Below, in pieces: positions 9,727-20,840 of a stretch of DNA of 64,000 nt (position 1 is its first letter; each line of letters begins with the position of its first letter). The DNA comes from Lysobacter silvisoli (GTDB taxonomy: Bacteria; Pseudomonadota; Gammaproteobacteria; Xanthomonadales; Xanthomonadaceae), in the NCBI RefSeq assembly GCF_003382365.1, contig NZ_QTSU01000001.1, positions 2,480,001-2,544,000 on the forward strand, written 5' to 3'. Position numbers and translations under genes: made by a program. The notes below the pieces were generated by a model that saw only the letters and a list, made by a program, of their open reading frames with translations, searched no databases and had not been told where the DNA came from.

Positions 9727-10292
9727 CAGTGCGCCTCGCCGGCGTCGCCGCACCAGTCCAGCGCGTGCAGCGAGGCATGCGGCACGTCGATGCCGGCCAT
9801 GTCGCCGAAGCCGCGCCGCTCGTGCACGCAGCGCAGCAGGCGGATCGCGCCGCCGTGGGTCACCGCCAGCACGCGCCGTTGCGGCCAGCGCCGCGCGGCC
9901 GCGTCCAGCGCAGTGGTCAGGCGCGCGCGGAACGCAGCAAAGCTTTCGCCACCCGGCGGCGGGTGCGCGACCGGGTCGGCCCAGAAGCGGCCCAGAGCCT
10001 CGCCCTGCGACTCGGCCAGCGTCTCGATCGGCACGCCCTGCCACTGGCCGAAGTGATATTCGGCCAAGCCCGCGTCCAGATGCAGCGGCAAGCCACGCGC
10101 CTGCGCCAGCTCGGCGGCGAACTCGGCGCAACGGCGCAACGGCGACGACACGATGGCGTCCCACTCGCGTCCGATCACGGCAGCGTGCAGCTGCGTCCAG
10201 CCGATCTCCAGCAAGGGATCGTCGAGCTGGCCGCGATAGCTGCGCTCACCGGTATCGCCATGGCGCAGCAGGTCGATGACGGTCGCGTTCAT
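9726..10292 (-). CDS. cobC: Alpha-ribazole phosphatase (histidine phosphatase family)
   Basis: A 188-residue phosphoglycerate-mutase-like phosphatase. The catalytic RHG ([15 protein letters not shown], about residue 9) and the second His ([12 protein letters not shown], about 145) are present. CobC removes the phosphate from alpha-ribazole-5'-P or adenosylcobalamin-5'-P. The assignment among histidine phosphatases rests on position between cobT and cobS, as the family is functionally mixed. The start ATG at 10292 overlaps the cobT stop by four bases (ATGA). Confidence 0.85.
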
Positions 10293-11362
10293 ACCTGTTC
10301 CGATACGCCGGCCTGATCGAAGGTGGCCATGCCCGCGTGCAGCGCGCAGGCCAGGCGCAGGGTCGGCACCGCCACCGCCGCGCCGCTGCCCTCGCCCAGG
10401 CGCATGTCCAGTGCCAGCAAGGGCTGCGCGCCCAGGGCGTCGAGCAAGGCGGCGTGGCCGCGTTCGTGCGAGCGGTGCGCGTACAGCAGCCAGTCGCGCA
10501 CGCCGGGGTTCAATCGCGTCGCGGCCAAGGCGGCGGCTGTGGCGATGAATCCGTCCACCAGCACGGGCAGCGCGGCCTGCGCGGCGGCGATGTACGCGCC
10601 GGCCAGCGCGGCGATCTCGAAGCCGCCCAGGCAGCGCAGGCGTTCGCGCGCATCGCGCGCGTCGGCATGCCGGGCCAGCGCGCGTTCGATCACCGCCGCC
10701 TTGTGAGCGATGCCGGCCGCGTCCAGGCCGGTGCCGGCGCCGGCCAACTGCGCTGGCGCCAGGTCCAGCAAGGCGCAGGACAGGGCGGTGGCGGCGGTGG
10801 TGTTGGCGATGCCCATTTCGCCGCCGATGTAGAGCTGCGCATTGGCGGCCAGGGCCAGGCGCACGCTGTCGGCGCCGGCCTGCAACGCCGCGCGCAGTTG
10901 CGGCTCGCTCATCGCCGGCTCGACGCAGACGTTGCCACTGCAGGGTGCGAGGACGACGCGACGCACGCCGGGAATGTCGCCCGGGTCGTTGACCGTGCCC
11001 AGGTTGACCACGTCCAGGCGCGCGCCCAATTCGCGCGCCAGCACGCTGATCGCGGCGCCGCCGCTGGCGAAGTTGCGCACCATCTCGCCGGTGACCGCCT
11101 GCGGGAACGCCGACACGCCTTCGGCGGCCACGCCGTGGTCGGCGGCGAACACACTGATCCACACCCGTTGCAGCGATGGCTGCTCGGTACGCTGCAGCGC
11201 CGCCAGCCGGACCGCCGCCGCTTCCAGCGCACCCAGCGAACCCGGCGGCTTGGTCAGGCGGTCCTGGCGCGCCAACGCCTGGGCCCTGCAATCGCGGTCG
11301 GGCTCGGCGCAGTCGTGCAGGATCCAGTCGGGGTCGGCCGCGGCGGTGGCGGTGAGGTTCAA
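10289..11362 (-). CDS. cobT: Nicotinate-nucleotide:dimethylbenzimidazole phosphoribosyltransferase
   Basis: A 357-residue enzyme that makes alpha-ribazole-5'-phosphate from a lower-ligand base and nicotinate mononucleotide. Diagnostic sequences are [13 protein letters not shown] (about residue 35), [17 protein letters not shown] (about 75) and, near the C-terminus, [17 protein letters not shown] containing the catalytic Glu. The start codon is TTG at 11362, overlapping the cobU stop as TTGA, with AGGAG seven bases upstream; no ATG fits the family N-terminus. It lies between cobU and cobC in the operon. Confidence 0.93.
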
Positions 11363-11877
11363 GGCAGGTCTCCTTTGAGCGCCAGCGGCAGGCCGGCGGC
11401 GACGAACAGCACGCGCTCGCAGCGCGTGGCCAGGGATTGATGCAGGCGTCCGGCCTCGTCGACGTAGCGCCGGGTCAGCTCGCCCAGCGGCACCACCCCC
11501 AGACCGACTTCGTTGCTGACCAGCACGATGTCGCCGGGCAGTTGCGGCAGCAGGTCCAATAAGGCCTCGCGCTCATGCGCGTAACGCGCTTCGTCGGTAT
11601 CGCCGAGCAGATTGCTCAGCCACAGCGTCAGGCAATCGACCAGCACGCAGCGCCCGTCGCGCGCCTGCGCATGCAAGGCATCGGCCAACGCCAGCGGTTC
11701 TTCCACCGTGAGCCACTGCGACGGCCGGCGCTGGCGGTGGTGGACGATGCGTTCGTCCATTTCGCCGTCGCGCGCCTGCGCGGTGGCGATGTAGACCACC
11801 TCCAAGCTGCGCGCGGCCAGGGCCTCGGCCAAGGCGCTCTTGCCGGAACGCGCGCCGCCCAGGATCAGGGTACGCAT
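11359..11877 (-). CDS. cobU: Bifunctional adenosylcobinamide kinase / guanylyltransferase
   Basis: A 172-residue enzyme that phosphorylates adenosylcobinamide and transfers GMP to it. The P-loop [15 protein letters not shown] opens the protein, with the conserved [18 protein letters not shown] and [13 protein letters not shown] segments further in; length is normal. The ATG at 11877 is chosen because the P-loop must be near the N-terminus; an upstream in-frame ATG at 11907 would add ten residues translated over the cobQ end. It overlaps cobQ by 13 bases and cobT by 4. Confidence 0.93.
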
Positions 11878-13349
11878 GCTTGCGCTCCCGCAGGCAGGCC
11901 CAGCCACTGCGCCAGCAGCCCGGTATCCAGATGCTGCTCGACCGCATCGGCCAGGCGGTCGATGCCGCCTTCGCGCAAGGCGTGCATGTCAATGGACTCG
12001 ACTTCTTCCAGGCCCGCCCAGCGCAACAACGCAGCCAGCGCTTCGGGCCGGTCGAACAGGCCGTGCAGATAGGTGGCCAGGATCTGCCCGTCCGCCGAGC
12101 GCGCGCCATCGCTGCGTCCGTCGTCCAGATGCAGCGCCGGTGCCGACAAGGCCGGACCGCTGCTCACACCGCAATGGATTTCGTAGCCGGTTACCGGCGC
12201 GCCTTCCAGGGTCAAGCCGCCGGCGACATTGCGCAGATGCTTGTGCGGCTCCAGCGTGGTGTCCAGATCCAGCCAGCCCAAGCCGTCGCTGGAACCGGGC
12301 ACGCCTTCGATCCCCAACGGATCGTGCACGGCGCGGCCCAGCATCTGCAGCCCGCCGCAGATGCCGATCAGCTTGCCGCCGTAGCGCAGATGGCGGGCGA
12401 TCGCGGTGTCCCAGCCGTGCGTGCGCAGCCAGGCCAGATCGGCGCGGGTGGACTTGGTGCCCGGCAGCACGATCAGGTCGCAGGGCGGCGGCGTTTCGCC
12501 GGGGCCGACAAAGCGCAGGTCCACCTGCGGATGCGCGCGCAAGGCGTCGAAGTCGTTGTGGTTGCTGATTCGCGGCAAGGCCGGCACGGCCACGCGCAAG
12601 GCGGCGCCGGCTTTGATCGCGGCTGCGCGCGGCAAGGCGTCTTCGGCCTCCAGGTGCAGGCCGTGCAGGTAGGGAAGCACGCCGAGCACCGGCTTGCCGG
12701 TTTCGCGCTCCAGCCAATCCAGACCCGGTTGCAGCAACGCCAGATCGCCGCGGAAGCGGTTGATGACGAAACCGCAGACGCGCTCGCGCTCGCTGGGCGA
12801 CAGCAAGGCCAGGGTGCCGACCAGGTGCGCGAACACCCCGCCGCGATCGATGTCGGCGATCAGCAGCACCGGGCAGTCCACCGCCTCGGCGTAGCCCATG
12901 TTGGCGATATCGCCCTGGCGCAGGTTGATCTCGGCCGGGCTGCCCGCGCCTTCCACGATCACCGCATCGAACTCGCCGACCAGCCGCGCGTGCGAGGCCA
13001 GCACCGCCTCGCGCGCTACGCGCTTGTAGTCGTGGTAGGCGCGCGCGTCCATGTTGGCGACTGCCCGGCCGTGCAGGATCACTTGCGCGCCCGTGTCGCT
13101 GTTGGGCTTGAGCAGCACCGGGTTGAAGTCGGTGCGCGCGGCCACGCCGGCGGCCTGGGCCTGCACCGCCTGGGCGCGGCCGATCTCGCCGCCGTCGGCG
13201 GTGACGGCCGAGTTCAAGGCCATGTTCTGCGGCTTGAACGGCGCCACGCGCACGCCGCGCCGGTGCAGCCAGCGACACAGTGCCGCCACCATCGCACTCT
13301 TGCCGGCATCGGAGGTGCAACCCTGCACCATCAGCACCCGCGCGCTCAT
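11865..13349 (-). CDS. cobQ: Cobyric acid synthase (glutamine-hydrolysing)
   Basis: A 494-residue amidotransferase that amidates four side chains of adenosylcobyrinate a,c-diamide. It has the dethiobiotin-synthetase-like ATPase domain ([20 protein letters not shown] at the N-terminus, [10 protein letters not shown]) followed by a glutamine amidotransferase domain with [10 protein letters not shown] (nucleophilic Cys) and the His of TYLHGLF. The ATG at 13349 overlaps the cobD stop by four bases. Longer in-frame extensions upstream lie over cobD and are rejected. Confidence 0.94.
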
Positions 13350-14344
13350 GCCACGCTCCGTTCGGCCGCGACTTCGGCCAAGGCGGCGTCCAGGCGTTGC
13401 CATTGGTCTTCGCTGCCGGGCAGGCCGAAGCGCAGGCTGGCCGGCGCCTCGAATAGGCGGGTCAGGATGCCGCGGCGCGCCAGCGCCTCGTGCCAAGCCG
13501 ATGCGTCGGCGTCACGCCGCCATTGGAAGAAGGCGCAGCCGCCGCTGGGCGCCAGGCCGCGCGCCTGCAGCAAGGCGTACAGGCGCTGGCCCTGCGCGAG
13601 CAACAGCGCACGCATTGCCTCCTGCCACTCACGGTCGGCCAGCGCTTGACGCAGCACATGGCGCGTGGGTCCGCTCAAGGTCCACGGCCCCAGCCGTTCG
13701 CGCAACGCTTCCAGCAAAGCGGGCGAGGCGCAGACGAAGCCGGCGCGCGCGCCGGCCAGGCCGAAGAACTTGCCGGCCGACCGCAGTACCACCAAGCCCT
13801 CGCGCGCGCTGTGTGCGCACAGGCTGCGCTCGGGCGTGGCGTCCATGAAGGCCTCGTCGATGACCAACCAGCCGCCGCGCGCAGCCAACCGTGCATGCAG
13901 TTCCAGCAGCGCCTGCGGCGCATAGGACTCGCCGCCGGGATTGTTGGGATGGATCAGCAGCACCACGTCGTAGTTGTCCGCGCGCGCGAGCAACTCGTCC
14001 GATGCCAGCGTGTCCACCGCATGCCCGCAACGGCGCCAGGCGTGCGCGTGCTCGGCGTAGCCGGGCGCGAGCACGCCCACGCGCGCGGGCGTGCGCAGCT
14101 CGGGCAAAGCCTGGATCGCGGCCTGCGAACCGGCCACCGGCAGCAAAAACGGCGCGCCGTAGTAATCGCGAGCAGCGTCGACCAGGCCGTCGTCGTCCTC
14201 GGGCAATCGATGCCAGGCGCGCGCGGGTATCTGCGGCACCGGCCAGGCCACCGGATTGATGCCCGTGGACAGGTCCAGCCAGTCCGCGGGCGCGATGCCG
14301 TACCGGCGCGCTGCGCGCAGCAATCGGCCGCCGTGCTCAAGCAT
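13346..14344 (-). CDS. cobD: Threonine-phosphate decarboxylase (PLP-dependent)
   Basis: A 332-residue class I/II aminotransferase-fold enzyme that makes (R)-1-amino-2-propanol phosphate, the aminopropanol arm of cobalamin (named CobD in Salmonella, CobC in Pseudomonas). It shows [13 protein letters not shown] near the N-terminus, [10 protein letters not shown] (about 130), VIDEAFMD (about 165) and the PLP lysine in [17 protein letters not shown] (about 195). The position directly before cobQ and after cbiB distinguishes it from histidinol-phosphate aminotransferase. 36 bases separate it from cbiB. Confidence 0.92.
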
Positions 14345-14380: not shown

Positions 14381-15319
14381 TCAATGCCCCGCTCCGAAAC
14401 AGAACCAAGCCACCGGCAGCGCCCACAGCGCCAGCCACAGCAGCACGCCGCGGCTCACCAAGGCCTGCGCACGCTCGATCGCGCCGGCATCCGGCGCGGC
14501 GCCTTCGCCCAGCAGCGGCCGCTGTTCCCAGACGCCGTGATACGGCGCCGCGCCGCCCAGGCGCACGCGCAGGGCGCCCGCACCGGCGGCCATCACCGGC
14601 CCGGCATTCGGACTGTCCCAGGCCGGCGCCTGCGCGCGCCAGCAGCGCAGCGCGCCGGCCGCGTGGCCGAGAACGGCGTAAGTCAACGCGGTCAGGCGCG
14701 CGGGCAGATAGTTGAGCGCATCGTCGATGCGCGCCGCGGCCCAGCCGTAGCGTTCGTAGCGCGGCGTGCGATAGCCCCACATCGCGTCCAAGGTGTTGGC
14801 CAGGCGGTACAGCACCGCGCCGGCCGGGCCCAGCAGCGCGAACCAGAACAAGGCGCCGAACACGGCGTCGTTGCCGTTCTCCAGCACCGACTCGGTCGCC
14901 GCGGCGGCCACGCGCTCGGCGTCCAGCGCCTGCACGTCGCGGCTGACGATGCGGCCGACCGCCGCGCGCGCGGCGCCCAGATCGTTCGCGCGCAAGGCGC
15001 GCGCCACCGGCGCCGCGTGCTCGCCCAGACTGCGCAGGCCCACGCAGGCGTACAGCACCACCGCGGCGAACGCCGCAGCCGCCCACGGCGACCAGCGCGC
15101 CAGCGCCAGTTGCAGCGCCGCGGTCAGCGCCGTCGCCGGCAGCACGGCCAAGCTCCACGCCAGCACGCCGCGTAGGCGGCGGTCGCCGTAGCAGGCGCGC
15201 TCGATCGCCTGGGCCAGGCGGCCGAAGCCGACCAGCGGGTGCGCATGCCGCGGCTCGCCGAGCAGGCGGTCCAGCAGCAGCGCCGCCAACAGCGCGGCAT
15301 AGGCCCATAGCGCGCTCAT
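14381..15319 (-). CDS. cbiB: Adenosylcobinamide-phosphate synthase
   Basis: A 312-residue inner-membrane protein that attaches the aminopropanol phosphate to adenosylcobyric acid. Family sequences are [20 protein letters not shown] at the N-terminus, [20 protein letters not shown] (about 120), [19 protein letters not shown] and [14 protein letters not shown]. Four to six hydrophobic segments are visible. The ATG at 15319 overlaps the cobB stop by four bases. Confidence 0.93.
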
Positions 15320-16614
15320 GGCGCCAACAGGCGCAGCGCCGCGTCCGGGTTGGACGGGAAATAGAAGTGGACGAAGCTCGCGGTCATGCGCCGGTCGCGG
15401 TACACCGCCTCGCGACTGGGGCCGCCATTGGGATTGCGCGCCAGGGCCAGGGGCGCGGCGGCGATCTCGGCCTGGGCGTAGTGGAAGGTGTGGCCGCGCA
15501 ATTCGCCTTCGGGCAATTCCACGGCCTGCAGGCCCAAGCCGGCCAGGCGCGGTTGCAAGCGCGCGTGACCGGACAGCAGACCGGCCATCTCGCCGCGCTG
15601 TCCGTCGCGGTCGGCCAGCGAGTCCAGCGCGTACAGCAGGCCGCCGCATTCGGCCAGCAGCGGCTTGCCGGCGTCGCGGTGCGCATGCAGCGCCAGGCGC
15701 AGATCGTCGCGGCGCGACAGCGCGTCCAGGTGCAATTCGGGATAGCCGCCCGGCAGCCAGACCGCATCGCAGTCGGGCAACGCATCGCCGGCCAGCGGCG
15801 AGAAGAACGCGAGTTCGGCGCCCGCGGCGCGCAACAGGTCCAGGTTGGCCGGATACAGGAAGCAGAACGCGGCGTCGCGGGCGATGGCGATGCGGCGGCC
15901 GCGCAACAGCGGTGCGACTTGCGCGCTGGTTGCCGGCGCGAACGCGACCGGCGGCGGCAGCGCCGCATCGGCATGCGCGGCCCAGGCATCGGCCAGCACG
16001 TCCAGGCGCGCATCCAGATCGCCCAGTTCCTGCGCGGCCACCAGACCCAGGTGCCGTTCGGGCAGCGACAGCGCCGGATCGCGCGGCAGCGCGCCCAGCC
16101 ATTGCAGCGACGGCGGCAGGCTCTCGCGCAACAGCTGCGCGTGATAAGCGCTGCCGATACGGTTGGCGGCCACGCCGTACATGCACAGGTCTTCGCGGTA
16201 GTTCGCCAAGCCCAAGGCCAATGCGCCGAAGGTCTGCGCCATGGCCGAACCGTCCAGCACCGCCAGCACCGGCAACCCCAGCGCGATCGCCAGATCGGCA
16301 CTGCTGGGCTTGCCGTCGTACAGGCCCATCACCCCTTCGACCAGGATCAGGTCGGCCTGGCCGGCGGCCTGGTACAGGCGTGCGCGCACGTCGTCCTCGC
16401 CGCACATCCACAGGTCCAGCTGCTGCGCCGGCGCGCCGCTGGCGCGCTCGTGCACCATCGGGTCGAGGAAGTCCGGGCCGGTCTTGAACACGCGCACGCG
16501 GCGGCCTTGGCGGCTGTGCCAGCGCGCCAGCGCGGCGGTGGCGCTGGTCTTGCCCTGGCCCGAGGCCGGGGCCGACACCAGCAAGGCGGGACAGTGGCGG
16601 ACGGCGTCGCTCAT
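15316..16614 (-). CDS. cobB: Cobyrinic acid a,c-diamide synthase
   Basis: A 432-residue ATP- and glutamine-dependent amidotransferase acting on the a and c side chains of (hydrogeno)cobyrinate. The N-terminal P-loop is [20 protein letters not shown]; the C-terminal amidotransferase domain has [11 protein letters not shown] (nucleophilic Cys) and the HFYFPSNP region with the His. [17 protein letters not shown] is typical of CobB/CbiA. The ATG at 16614 is preferred over an in-frame upstream codon at 16665 since the latter lies inside cobO. Its presence implies that cobyrinate-level corrinoids are used. Confidence 0.93.
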
Positions 16615-16618
16615 GCGC

Positions 16619-17236
16619 TTACAGCTCGATGCCTTTCTGCGCCTTGATCCCGGCCTTGAACGCATGCTTGACCACGCGCATCTCGGTCACGGTATCGGCC
16701 GCTTCCACCAGCGCATCGGGCGCGCCGCGGCCGGTAACGACCACGTGCTGACGCTGCGGCCGCGCGGCCACCGCGGCGAGCACCGCCTCGAGTTCGATGT
16801 AGCGATGGGCCAGGGCGATGTTGAGCTCGTCGAGCAGCACGAAATCGAAACTCTCGTCGGCCAGCATCGCCGCCGCCTTGGCCCAGGCGGCCTGTGCGGC
16901 CGCGATGTCGCGCGACTTGTCCTGGGTTTCCCAGGTGAAGCCTTCGCCCATGACGTGATAGGCCAATTGCTCGCCTTCGAACAGGCGGAAGAAGGCCTCC
17001 TCGCCGGTGGAGAAGCTGCCCTTGATGAACTGCACCACGCCGCAGCGGAAGCCGTGACCCAGCGAACGGGCGAGCATGCCGAAACCCGATGAGCTCTTGC
17101 CCTTGCCGTTGCCGGTGTTCACCACCAGCACGCCGCGCTCGATGGTGGCGCGCGCGATCTTGCGGTCCACCAGCTCCTTCTTGCGCTGCATGCGCTCGCG
17201 GTGGCGTTCTTCCGGACTGAGTTCGGTCTGGCTCAT
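16619..17236 (-). CDS. cobO: Cob(I)yrinic acid a,c-diamide adenosyltransferase (CobA/BtuR type)
   Basis: A 205-residue ATP:corrinoid adenosyltransferase. It has the P-loop VNTGNGKGKSSSGFGMLARS (about residue 40), VVQFIKG, FTWETQD and FVLLDELNIAL, all diagnostic of the CobA/CobO/BtuR family, and the last residues GIKAQKGIEL are typical. It supplies the upper axial adenosyl ligand for new or salvaged corrinoids. The start overlaps the btuM-like gene upstream by four bases. Confidence 0.95.
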   Translation of the reverse strand: MSQTELSPEERHRERMQRKKELVDRKIARATIERGVLVVNTGNGKGKSSSGFGMLARSLGHGFRCGVVQFIKGSFSTGEEAFFRLFEGEQLAYHVMGEGFTWETQDKSRDIAAAQAAWAKAAAMLADESFDFVLLDELNIALAHRYIELEAVLAAVAARPQRQHVVVTGRGAPDALVEAADTVTEMRVVKHAFKAGIKAQKGIEL

Positions 17237-17847
17237 GCGCGGGCTCCGTGCTGGGCGGCGCGACCGGCGCCCAGCGCGCGCACGCTCGCCAGCAGCGCGA
17301 ACGCGGCGCCGACGTAGCCGGCCAGGGTGCCCAGGTTACGCGGATAGTAATGGGCGATGCGCTCGGCGAAGCCGGTCAAAGTGGGATCGGGGTAGCGGCC
17401 GGAGAAGAAATAGAAGCCGCCGCCGGAGCACAGGTAGGCGACCAGCGCGGCCAGGGCCAGCATCAGCGCCAGCTTGGGCACGGTGGACCAGCGCTCGCGA
17501 TGCAGGCGCGAGTAGTGGAAGCCGGCCAGCCACAAGGATGCGTAGGCCGGCGCGAGCGCCCAGTAGGCCGGCGACAGGCACCAGTCGCTGATGCTGCCGG
17601 TGCCCAGGCTGATCATGTCCAGCAGCGAGGCCAGCACGAACAGCAACGGCAGCATCCACATCGGCCGCAGCAGCGCCCCGGCGAGGAAGAAGATCGCCCA
17701 GGACGCGCTGGGCAAGCGGTCGACGGTGGCGAAGTGCTGGCCGCGGGTGGCGATCATCAGCGCGGCGAGAGCGACGCCAACGGCGATCTGGACCTTGCGC
17801 GAACTCAAGGGCAAGGTGGCGGCGGACAGGGTGGTGGCTGGGGACAT
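17233..17847 (-). CDS. btuM: BtuM-like vitamin B12 transporter (solitary ECF-type S component), copy 1
   Basis: A 204-residue membrane protein with about six hydrophobic segments. I assign it as BtuM from context (between btuB and cobO) and from residues that line up with those I recall in the characterised Thiobacillus BtuM (His28, Asp67, Cys80, Tyr85, Arg153). Here the matching set is His38, Asp77, Cys90, Tyr95 and Arg163, with identical spacing (39, 13, 5, 68). The cysteine, in DWCLSPAYW, would bind cobalt in the transport site. Recalled family knowledge: such proteins move B12 across the inner membrane without an ECF ATPase module and can remove the cyano ligand. No energising ATPase lies nearby. 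The assignment rests on recalled residue numbers and context, not on a search. Confidence 0.75.
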   Translation of the reverse strand: MSPATTLSAATLPLSSRKVQIAVGVALAALMIATRGQHFATVDRLPSASWAIFFLAGALLRPMWMLPLLFVLASLLDMISLGTGSISDWCLSPAYWALAPAYASLWLAGFHYSRLHRERWSTVPKLALMLALAALVAYLCSGGGFYFFSGRYPDPTLTGFAERIAHYYPRNLGTLAGYVGAAFALLASVRALGAGRAAQHGARA

Positions 17848-17863
17848 GGCGGCGGCTCCGGGT

Positions 17864-18454
17864 TCAGGCCTGCGCCGCGCGCGGCGCGGTGCGGGCGGCG
17901 GTGAGGCGGGCGACGATGGCGTAAGCGGCCAGGCCGACGGCGATGTAGCTCAGCGTGGTGCGCACGAACAGCGGACCCCATTGCCAGACCCGCGACAGGT
18001 ACTGGGCGAAGTTCGGGTCTTCGTAGCGCCCGCCCAGCCAGTAGAAGGCGGCATTGGAGATCAGGAACGAAACCGCCGCCGCGGCCAGGCCCGCGACCAG
18101 CGCGCCGAACAGCGCGCGCGGCGTGGTCTGCAGGCGCGGCGCGTACCAGCGCCCGCCGTACCACAGCGCCGCATAGGCCAGCAGCAGAAAGGCGTAGGAC
18201 GGCGTCACGCAGTAATGCGCGAAGAAGCTCTTGCCCTGGGCCTGGATCGCGATCCAGTCGATCGCCACCGCCACGGTCAGGAACGCGGCGAAGCCCAGGT
18301 GCCGGCGCAGCCAGAGGCCGCCGAGGAAGAACACCGCCATCGACGCGTCGGGCAGATGCAGCGCGTTGCCGAAATGATGGAAGCGGGTGGCGACCATCAG
18401 CGCGGCGAGCGCGGTGAACAGACTGTAATAGACGGATCGGGCGGGTACGTTCAT
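17864..18454 (-). CDS. btuM: BtuM-like vitamin B12 transporter, copy 2
   Basis: A 196-residue paralogue of the next gene, with the same hydrophobic profile and aligned segments (VATRFHHFGNALHLPDASMA against IATRGQHFATVDRLPSASWA). The candidate ligand set is His27, Asp66, Cys82, Tyr87 and Arg155: the His-Asp (39) and Cys-Arg (73) distances equal those of copy 1, while three residues are inserted between Asp and Cys. The Cys motif is HYCVTPSYAF. It follows btuB by 40 bases and precedes copy 1 by 16. Keeping both copies with the cobalt-ligand cysteine suggests both transport corrinoids, perhaps with different specificity; that is inference. Confidence 0.72.
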   Translation of the reverse strand: MNVPARSVYYSLFTALAALMVATRFHHFGNALHLPDASMAVFFLGGLWLRRHLGFAAFLTVAVAIDWIAIQAQGKSFFAHYCVTPSYAFLLLAYAALWYGGRWYAPRLQTTPRALFGALVAGLAAAAVSFLISNAAFYWLGGRYEDPNFAQYLSRVWQWGPLFVRTTLSYIAVGLAAYAIVARLTAARTAPRAAQA

Positions 18455-18494: not shown

Positions 18495-20348
18495 TCAGTT
18501 CGCCGGGCGGTAACGCAGGGTCAGCAGGTAGTTGCGGCCGGGCTGGTTGTAATAGGCCGCGGTTTCGAAGCGTTGGTTGAACACGTTGTTGGCCGCCAGC
18601 TGCAGGCTCCAGGTGTCGTCGAAGCGCCAGCCCACGCGCAGGTCGGTGGCGGCGTAGCCGTCCAGGCGGCGGGTGTTGGCCAGATCGTCGTAGCGGCTGC
18701 CGGCCACGTAGACGCTGCTGCCCAGCGAGAACCGGCCGTAGCGACGGTCGGCGTCGAAGCGGGCGCTTTCGCGCGCGCGCCGCGGCAGGATCTTGTCGCG
18801 GCTGCTGCCGCGGCTGTCGTTGCGCGGATCCAGCCAGGTCGCGCTGGCACGCAGGTCCCAGCCGGCCAGGGTGGTGTCGACGGCGGCTTCGGCGCCGCGG
18901 ATGCGCGCGCGGTCGATGTTGCCGGGCAGGCCGATCGACGCATCGAACGCGATCAGTTCGTCCACCCGGCTTTCGTAAGCATTGAGCGACCAGCCGCCCC
19001 AGGCGTGCTCGCCGCGCAGGCCCAGTTCGAAGCTGCGCGATTCCTCGGGCTTGAGCGCGGCGTTGCCGAAACCGGGAAAGTACAGTTCGTTGAAGGTCGG
19101 CGCCTTGAACGCGGTGCCGTAGCTGGCGGTCAGGCGCAGCTGCTCGCTGAAGTTCCAGCCCCACAGCGCGCTGCCGGTGGTCTGGCCGCCGAACTGGCCG
19201 TCGTCGTCGCGGCGCAGGCTGGCCTGCAGCGAGTGGGCGCCGAAATCGCGCTGGTACTGGCCGAACAGGCCGCGGTTGATGCGCCGGTTCTCGGCGTAGC
19301 GGGTGCTGCTTTCGATCTCGTCGCGCTGCCAGTCGTAGCCCAGGCTGAGCAGGCCGCCGCCCAGGCCGACATCGCCCTGCAACGAACCCAGTTGGCGGCG
19401 GGTGTTGAAGGTGCTGGAGTAGACGCCGTTGCGGTAGTTGTCGCTGAGATCGCTGCTGCGGCCCAGGTTCAACGTCAACGTGGCGCGCTCGCCCGGCGCG
19501 TAGCGCAAGCGCGCGCCGGCGACCTGCTGCACGCTGTCGGTTTGATTGTTGGTGCTGCCGTCGTACTCGTTGCGGCCCTCGGCGCGGAACAGCCGCGCTT
19601 CGGCGTCCCAGGCGTCGCTGAAGCGATAGCCACCCTGCGCGGTCAGCGACAGGTTGCGGTAGCCGTCGCGGTCGGGCGAGTTGGTGAAGCAACCGGCGCC
19701 GCCCGGCGAAGGCTTGCCTCGGCAGGCGTTGATGCCGTCGGTGTCTTCGCTGGCGGCGTTGACCGAGTACCAGCCGCGCTCGCCCTTGCCGCCCACGCCC
19801 ACCGCGCCGCGCAATGTGCTCCAGCTGCCGACGGAGGCGCTGGCATAGGGCGCGAACGCGCCTTGCGGGCGGCGGGTGAAGATCTGGATCACGCCGCCCA
19901 GCGCTTCGGAGCCGTACAGGCTGGAGAACGGACCGCGCACGATCTCGATGCGTTCGACCTGTTCCGGCGGAATGTCCTGCAGCGAGGCGCCGCCGCTGGT
20001 GGCCGAGCCCAGCTTGATGCCGTCCACCAGCACCAGCACGTGGTCGGATTCGGTGCCGCGCAGGAACAGCGAGGTCGACTTGCCGGGGCCGCCGTTGTTG
20101 ACGATCGACAGGCCCAGGGTGCCGCGCAGCAGGTCGGGCAGGTTGCCCGGCTGCAGGCGCTCGATGTCCTCGCGGTCGATCACGGTGACCGAGGCCAGGG
20201 TCGCGTCCTGGGTCTGGGCGGTGCGGGTGGCGGTGACCACGACCTGGTCCAGGTCGGTGGCGGCGTCCTTGGCCCAGGCGGGCGCGAACGCGGACAGCAG
20301 CGCCGACGCCAGCGCGCAGCGGCGTACGACGGAAACAGTGGAATTCAA
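18495..20348 (-). CDS. btuB: TonB-dependent vitamin B12 receptor
   Basis: A 617-residue outer-membrane receptor importing corrinoids with TonB-ExbBD energy. A signal peptide ends at APAWA (about residue 26). The TonB box is DLDQVVVTATR (about 32-42); the plug follows with VLVLVDGIKLGSATSGG and ERIEIVRGPFSSLYGSEALG, then a 22-strand barrel. BtuB identity rests on the B12 riboswitch upstream and the operon. The start codon is TTG at 20348, with AGGAG seven bases upstream. An out-of-frame ATG at 20353 sits only two bases from the AGGAG and reads ATG-CTT-TGA. Confidence 0.92.
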   Translation of the reverse strand: MNSTVSVVRRCALASALLSAFAPAWAKDAATDLDQVVVTATRTAQTQDATLASVTVIDREDIERLQPGNLPDLLRGTLGLSIVNNGGPGKSTSLFLRGTESDHVLVLVDGIKLGSATSGGASLQDIPPEQVERIEIVRGPFSSLYGSEALGGVIQIFTRRPQGAFAPYASASVGSWSTLRGAVGVGGKGERGWYSVNAASEDTDGINACRGKPSPGGAGCFTNSPDRDGYRNLSLTAQGGYRFSDAWDAEARLFRAEGRNEYDGSTNNQTDSVQQVAGARLRYAPGERATLTLNLGRSSDLSDNYRNGVYSSTFNTRRQLGSLQGDVGLGGGLLSLGYDWQRDEIESSTRYAENRRINRGLFGQYQRDFGAHSLQASLRRDDDGQFGGQTTGSALWGWNFSEQLRLTASYGTAFKAPTFNELYFPGFGNAALKPEESRSFELGLRGEHAWGGWSLNAYESRVDELIAFDASIGLPGNIDRARIRGAEAAVDTTLAGWDLRASATWLDPRNDSRGSSRDKILPRRARESARFDADRRYGRFSLGSSVYVAGSRYDDLANTRRLDGYAATDLRVGWRFDDTWSLQLAANNVFNQRFETAAYYNQPGRNYLLTLRYRPAN

Positions 20349-20469
20349 AGCATGGCTCCTGGTCCGCGCCTACCCGCGCGGAATCGATGGGTCGGAGACA
20401 GGCGGGGACAGGGACGTGGGGCGGCGGAGCGCGGACGCAGGCAGCCCCATGACAGCGCCCACCGCGTGT

Positions 20470-20690
20470 CGGGTCAGCCTCAGGCCGGTCTCCGGGCTTG
20501 CAAGCGAGGGCCTCCAGCCCTCCGGTCCGCGCCTTCCCATGCCTGCGCACAGTGGCTTCGTTGCGGATCGTTCGTCTTGCTTACCGTTGCGGGGGCAGCT
20601 CCGGACTGGCCGCCGCTCCGTTCGGAGGGCTGGCGCACCGGATTCCCGTTTCAATCGCCGGCAGGGCCGGCAATCACCTCAAGCCCGGCC
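20470..20690 (-). ncRNA. Cobalamin riboswitch (B12 element)
   Basis: Read on the minus strand the leader contains the conserved B12 box AAGCCCGGAGACCGGCCTG (plus-strand 20481-20499), the core GCCCCCGCAACGGTAAG (about 20588-20605), GCCACTG and ATGGGAAGGCG segments, and an upstream GAAACGGGAA-CCGGTGCG region (about 20630-20650) after a P1/P2-like CCGGC hairpin. This is the standard adenosylcobalamin riboswitch architecture. It should repress btuB and the downstream btuM/cob genes when cobalamin is plentiful. The expression platform is between about 20355 and 20470; no U-tract terminator is obvious, so control of ribosome access is more likely. Confidence 0.95.
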
Positions 20691-20840
20691 ATGTTAGCAG
20701 CCGGCGCAAGCTCGCCCGCATGACGGTTCGGCATGAGCGCGGGGCCCTCGCCGGCGGCCCGATGAGCCACTGGACGGCACCTGGGCACACCCAATGTTCA
20801 AAACCATGACGTACGGCCATTTCCTCATAACCCTTCGCGT

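Follow-up and report, generated by a model that had tools for sequence, protein, structure and literature searches.

Two adjacent genes in the 64,000-nucleotide stretch of Lysobacter silvisoli DNA analyzed in this work (the window) raised the question of why one vitamin B12 operon should carry two BtuM-like transporters. BtuM-A (17233..17847, minus strand, 204 aa) and BtuM-B (17864..18454, minus strand, 196 aa) were separated by 16 bases, and all the genes around them were encoded on the same strand. A cobalamin riboswitch aptamer (20466..20696, minus; RF00174, 94.7 bits) was followed by btuB, encoding a TonB-dependent vitamin B12 receptor (18495..20348, minus; TIGR01779, 743 bits; start codon uncertain, TTG listed), BtuM-B, BtuM-A, and seven genes of corrinoid adenosylation and assembly, all minus: cobO/btuR, a corrinoid adenosyltransferase (16619..17236; PF02572, TIGR00708); cobB, a cobyrinic acid a,c-diamide synthase (15316..16614; NF002204, start inferred); cbiB, an adenosylcobinamide-phosphate synthase (14381..15310; TIGR00380, start approximate); cobD, a threonine-phosphate decarboxylase (13346..14344; TIGR01140); cobQ, a cobyric acid synthase (11865..13349; NF001989); cobU, an adenosylcobinamide kinase/guanylyltransferase (11359..11907); and cobT, a nicotinate-nucleotide-dimethylbenzimidazole phosphoribosyltransferase (10289..11362). 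The end of BtuM-A overlapped cobO by 4 nt (ATGA), and spacing and strand suggest that the run from btuB to cobT is co-transcribed as one operon.

Both proteins were members of the BtuM family. In phmmer searches against PDB chains (E up to 1), each matched a single sequence, the Thiobacillus denitrificans BtuM of entries 8c7p/8ovv (E=1.8e-42 for BtuM-A and E=7.1e-23 for BtuM-B); the identity between BtuM-A and BtuM-B was 33% over 185-200 aligned positions. Positions 28, 67, 80, 85 and 153 of the T. denitrificans chain were H, D, C, Y and R, in agreement with the published numbering, and H28, D67, C80, Y85 and R153 are the residues named in PMC6072759. All five were present in the window's BtuM-A and BtuM-B, Cys90 of the former and Cys82 of the latter corresponding to the cobalt-ligand Cys80. 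The AlphaFold models (mean pLDDT 90.8 for BtuM-A and 90.9 for BtuM-B) had 8c7p as their best Foldseek match (E 1.6e-12, TMt 0.89 and E 5.7e-9, TMt 0.82, respectively), and with VIA-align the BtuM-B model reached Z 20.1 to 8c7p and 19.6 to 8ovv, the next match being a biotin S-component (11.2); both predicted structures thus had an S-component fold like that of 8c7p. A preliminary description of this DNA had noted the shared spacing of His, Asp, Cys, Tyr and Arg with Thiobacillus BtuM, a cobalt-ligand Cys in both proteins and a B12-riboswitch operon; alignment with the experimentally known BtuM placed A and B inside the family with the ligand residues kept, and the riboswitch was real. Neither BtuM-A nor BtuM-B had a match above cut-off in Pfam or NCBIfam, an annotation gap that may leave such BtuM proteins unnamed and the inner-membrane step missing from predictions of salvage in Lysobacterales.

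The pair did not arise by simple duplication. A quick tree of 182 rows, for which the program warned of long branches, grouped A with the BtuM of T. denitrificans, and B with a third group, BtuM-C, each side having a support of 96; among the rows on the B side were four divergent ones that best hits had assigned to A. A more careful tree of 59 rows (12 long or divergent rows dropped and the rest sampled) separated B+C from A and T. denitrificans BtuM (support 100/97), and B, C and the Lysobacterales A (plus one Nevskiaceae row) each formed one side of a branch. Two constraints, picked after the quick tree was seen, were rejected: Lysobacterales A (plus one Nevskiaceae row) forced with B as a single clade (p-AU 0.00215, which rules out a recent or local tandem duplication) and Lysobacterales A forced with B and C (p-AU 0.00206). 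Since the A+B clade was rejected, A and B are not each other's closest lineages, and the pair brings together two old subfamilies, the classical BtuM clade for A and a second clade for B. The two genes had earlier been called tandem paralogues, of which the adjacency and the BtuM membership of both stood, but not the notion of ordinary tandem copies. Lysobacterales A nested beside Stutzerimonas A in both trees, which would fit, judging from sequence, a horizontal gain of A by Lysobacterales. The nearest named A loci were those of Lysobacter, with 76-78% identity (96 named loci found, of which 80 were kept).

A BtuM match (query A) was found in 201 of the 297 genomes of the host's family, a few of them marginal. 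A was called by score in 53/297 family genomes (weakest 8.2e-53, next match 1.2e-31) and B in 64/297 (6.3e-45 or better, next 1.4e-34), to which genome G092 was added as the 65th B genome, its B being partial and seemingly split and counted because of its adjacency to A. Fifty-two genomes carried both genes, 13 only B and one only A (G152). The doubling had been described as unusual, which was true of a sample of the phylum, where any BtuM was found in 19/398 genomes (7 of the 19 from the host's family), but less so of the family, in which the pair was common (52/297).

B lay directly upstream of A in all 52 genomes with both, that is, in 52/53 A-bearing family genomes. Such fixed adjacency and order would be expected if A and B formed a heteromeric transporter, as the preliminary description had proposed for the pair; several observations made this most unlikely, at least for an obligate heteromer. 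The 13/297 genomes with B but no A and the 1/297 with A but no B all had btuB, cobO and cbiB in the locus (14/14). Among the 80 named A loci, 38 had another BtuM as the next gene upstream, which was B in 37 and a more distant protein in the Panacagrimonas locus; in the other 42, considering the locus only, the next gene upstream was not a BtuM: 41 lay outside Lysobacterales, including Stutzerimonas, Pseudomonas, Azotobacter and Methylophilaceae (and counting L112, whose upstream side is missing from the stretch, and the Methylovorus loci L154 and L155 described below), and one was that of X. cucurbitae (L148). Four genomes outside the order (G319, G395, G512 and G595) had one strong A-type match and zero other BtuM matches in a whole-genome search, and T. 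denitrificans BtuM, according to PMC6072759, works in E. coli with no partner BtuM.

Other arrangements were seen among these loci. The Panacagrimonas (Nevskiaceae) locus (L121:5423-6525) had a BtuM pair of its own, whose upstream member carried Pro at position 28, and the Methylovorus loci L154 and L155 had two successive btuB-BtuM cassettes, with a further BtuM about 3 kb upstream of A.

The genomes with B alone also bear on a division of labor in which one of the pair, most likely B, would be mainly a corrinoid processor at the periplasmic face (decyanation or ligand removal) handing its product to A. The T. denitrificans protein couples decyanation to transport through its Cys (PMC6072759), B is the upstream gene and the nearest to btuB, and the loop at its Cys is of variable length. 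Nevertheless, five B-only genomes (G005, G057, G137, G198 and G224), with btuB, cobO and cbiB present, had no other BtuM match, so B would itself be the transporter there unless another permease is, and we regard this arrangement as very unlikely.

The source genome was then considered for other routes across the inner membrane. The preliminary description had noted a solitary S-component with no ATPase nearby and proposed a search for ECF modules elsewhere in the genome; judged on EcfT/CbiQ (PF02361), this gave zero matches, in agreement with the solitary state of the pair, while 10/14 control genomes were positive. The FecCD/BtuC-type permease also had zero matches in the source genome (13/14 control genomes positive). 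EcfT was found in only 1/297 family genomes (G216), one without a BtuM match; dependence of A or B on an ECF module was therefore rejected.

The pair was tied to cobinamide salvage. CbiB matched 232/297 family genomes at a loose limit, 102 of which passed the curated cut-off; the scores split in two sets, and only the upper one was counted (65 genomes at 1.1e-69 or better, the remainder being 4.4e-13 or weaker). Of the 66 genomes carrying A, B or both, 65 had strong CbiB (all but G192, which carries both), as did 0/135 other BtuM hosts, co-occurrence counts that are not independent of phylogeny; the association did not separate A from B. The cobB gene lay in the locus stretch of 42/53 A-bearing versus 3/13 B-only genomes (Fisher p 0.00026; genera not independent). 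CbiC, a marker of corrin-ring synthesis, was found in 0/297 family genomes (7/14 control genomes positive), which fits the classification of Lysobacter and Xanthomonas as corrinoid dependents in PMC11287214. As a separate observation, G092 (L061) and G192 (L060), two genomes of one genus, had operons that were seemingly decaying, with B apparently split in the first and strong CbiB absent from the second.

Three proteins with a B12-binding domain were found in the source genome: MetH, one like IcmF, seen as a partial frame, and a radical-SAM protein resembling BchE. The last (L009:1429-2979) scored above the NCBIfam BchE cut-off (553.6 vs 481.35 bits), which would be odd for a non-phototroph. 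Three other cobalamin riboswitches (L005, L006 and L007) were close to genes for a class I-type ribonucleotide reductase (NrdA), a CobN/BchH-like protein and a second BtuB.

The source genome also had a third BtuM gene, overlooked by the preliminary description: BtuM-C (match G000:C2:49978-50511; gene L002:1489-2070), with the gene of a PduO-type adenosyltransferase (L002:2093-2647) following it after 19 bases if that gene starts at L002:2093. An apparent fusion in a 971-codon open frame was discarded, the frame being a GC-rich read-through and homology pointing to an ATG of its own at L002:1489. BtuM-C had zero matches in NCBIfam at E 1e-20. The gene pduO adjoined BtuM-C in 29/29 distinct C-clade loci read (source genome counted once). 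Loci were read from 22 family genomes that had neither A nor B: 20 had the C-pduO arrangement and 2 a divergent BtuM beside btuB (G022 and G067; L185 and L197); these divergent proteins had Glu or Asp in place of His28 and Gln in place of Arg153, and kept the Cys. From its sequence context, BtuM-C is probably an importer of complete cobalamin.

The subfamilies also differed in residues. With T. denitrificans BtuM as the reference, 170 rows were compared in four groups, and 11 divergent rows were kept apart. Cys80 and Asp67 were present in 170/170 grouped and 11/11 divergent rows; His28 was invariant in A and C, was kept by 88% of B rows and was replaced in 3/11 divergent rows. Arg153 was kept by A and B (97-98% of rows), but position 153 was Asn in 29/29 C rows, including the source genome's BtuM-C. 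Met40, Phe128, Asn132, Trp137, Gly139 and Trp157 were fixed in 56/56 BtuM-B rows, Trp137 and Trp157 being fixed in BtuM-C too; position 40, Met throughout B, was Trp in 96-100% of A and C rows.

The loop preceding the Cys was 3 residues longer in 29/30 rows labelled C, all 29 ending in HYC, and the longer loop was also seen in 21/62 B rows, of which 16 ended in HYC, the window's BtuM-B among them. With the loop excised, the best tree gave two origins of the longer loop within B, and a single origin was not rejected (p-AU 0.221). In genome G044, the loop of B was 14/24 identical to that of its own C versus 11/24 to a related B, and outside the loop the same BtuM-B was 88/132 identical to the related B versus 48/133 to its own C. 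The longer loop common to B and C may stem from a shared origin, from convergence or from gene conversion.

We somewhat favor an explanation in which A and B are solitary corrinoid importers of a riboswitch-led salvage operon, retained for different corrinoid preferences. BtuB would carry corrinoids across the outer membrane, and A and B, as putative transporters with the S-component fold, would act in the inner membrane. By analogy with T. denitrificans BtuM, each would bind the corrinoid base-off with the Cys thiolate on cobalt, might strip an upper cyano ligand and would carry the corrinoid over the membrane without an ATPase. CobO, whose gene overlaps BtuM-A, would trap the corrinoid by adenosylation, and the adenosylated product would enter assembly by CobQ, CbiB, CobU and CobT. 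The two subfamilies would have diverged before the host lineage and have been kept together by their different preferences, the likeliest split having complete cobamides on one side and, on the other, incomplete corrinoids (e.g. cobinamide, cobyric acid or forms of cobyrinic acid). A divided preference is favored by the retention of two old subfamilies beside salvage genes and of a third beside PduO, a pattern suggesting that the BtuM family may be split into specialists for different B12-like molecules.

The alternative is that A and B are redundant importers with the same specificity, kept for dose or as a backup when B12 is scarce. They share operon and riboswitch, and the window's two proteins agree at each of the five pocket residues tested, which speaks against divided specificity. 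Redundancy stays in consideration because a single BtuM, that of T. denitrificans, binds cobalamin as well as cobinamide (PMC6072759); moreover, some relatives carry only one of the two genes, and the 13 B-only and one A-only salvage genomes indicate that a second BtuM is not strictly required for salvage. However, the deep separation of the subfamilies (not a recent copy), the order B-A maintained in nearly every A-bearing family genome and the fixed differences of B, such as Met40, fit redundancy poorly, and we give it a rather low probability.

A wider proposal, extending the divided preference of A and B to the whole family, is offered tentatively, as conceivable but more doubtful than its starting point: at least three BtuM subfamilies may exist, C importing complete cobamides and A and B different incomplete corrinoids for rebuilding, so that importers without an ATPase would discriminate by completeness or side chains, with the two-length cobalt-ligand loop and position 153 among the determinants of selectivity. 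With two subfamilies linked to the cobinamide-salvage operon and the third to PduO, the set provides a ready comparison for the determinants of BtuM specificity and should also be useful for studying how solitary S-components work. The BtuM family itself was already known; in the literature searched, no description was found of paired BtuM genes or BtuM subfamilies, nor of the three-way split and its tie to salvage.

The closest known system is T. denitrificans BtuM (Tbd_2719; 8c7p, 8ovv; Rempel et al. 2018, PMC6072759), the only characterized BtuM in the literature examined. BtuM is reported to move B12 with no ATPase involved. According to PMC6072759, the T. denitrificans protein mediates uptake in a btuF/btuC/metE mutant of E. 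coli, Cys80 being needed, and binds and decyanates cobinamide; facilitated diffusion followed by trapping by BtuR was proposed there as its mode of action. This BtuM has in common with the window's proteins the S-component fold, six helices, the cobalt-ligand Cys and H28/D67/Y85/R153, as well as the lack of an ECF module and the link to btuB and btuR/cobO; it differs in that its clade takes in only A, while B and C form another clade with subfamily-specific residues. The BtuM operons of Pseudomonadaceae and Azotobacter (e.g. L103 and L123) have the same order (btuB, BtuM-A, cobO, cobB, cbiB, cobD, cobQ) but no B gene between btuB and A. The S-components of ECF transporters (BioY, ThiT, RibU and FolT) resemble the BtuM-B model in overall fold (VIA Z about 10-11), but show only 8-13% identity to BtuM-B and belong to systems with the EcfT that is missing here, whereas BtuM ligates the corrin through a Cys. 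Gut Bacteroides, as Degnan et al. reportedly described in 2014, carry several corrinoid uptake systems per genome that distinguish between corrinoids; there, the choice reportedly lies in BtuBFCD-type systems, whereas in the operon described here single-subunit BtuM proteins would make it.
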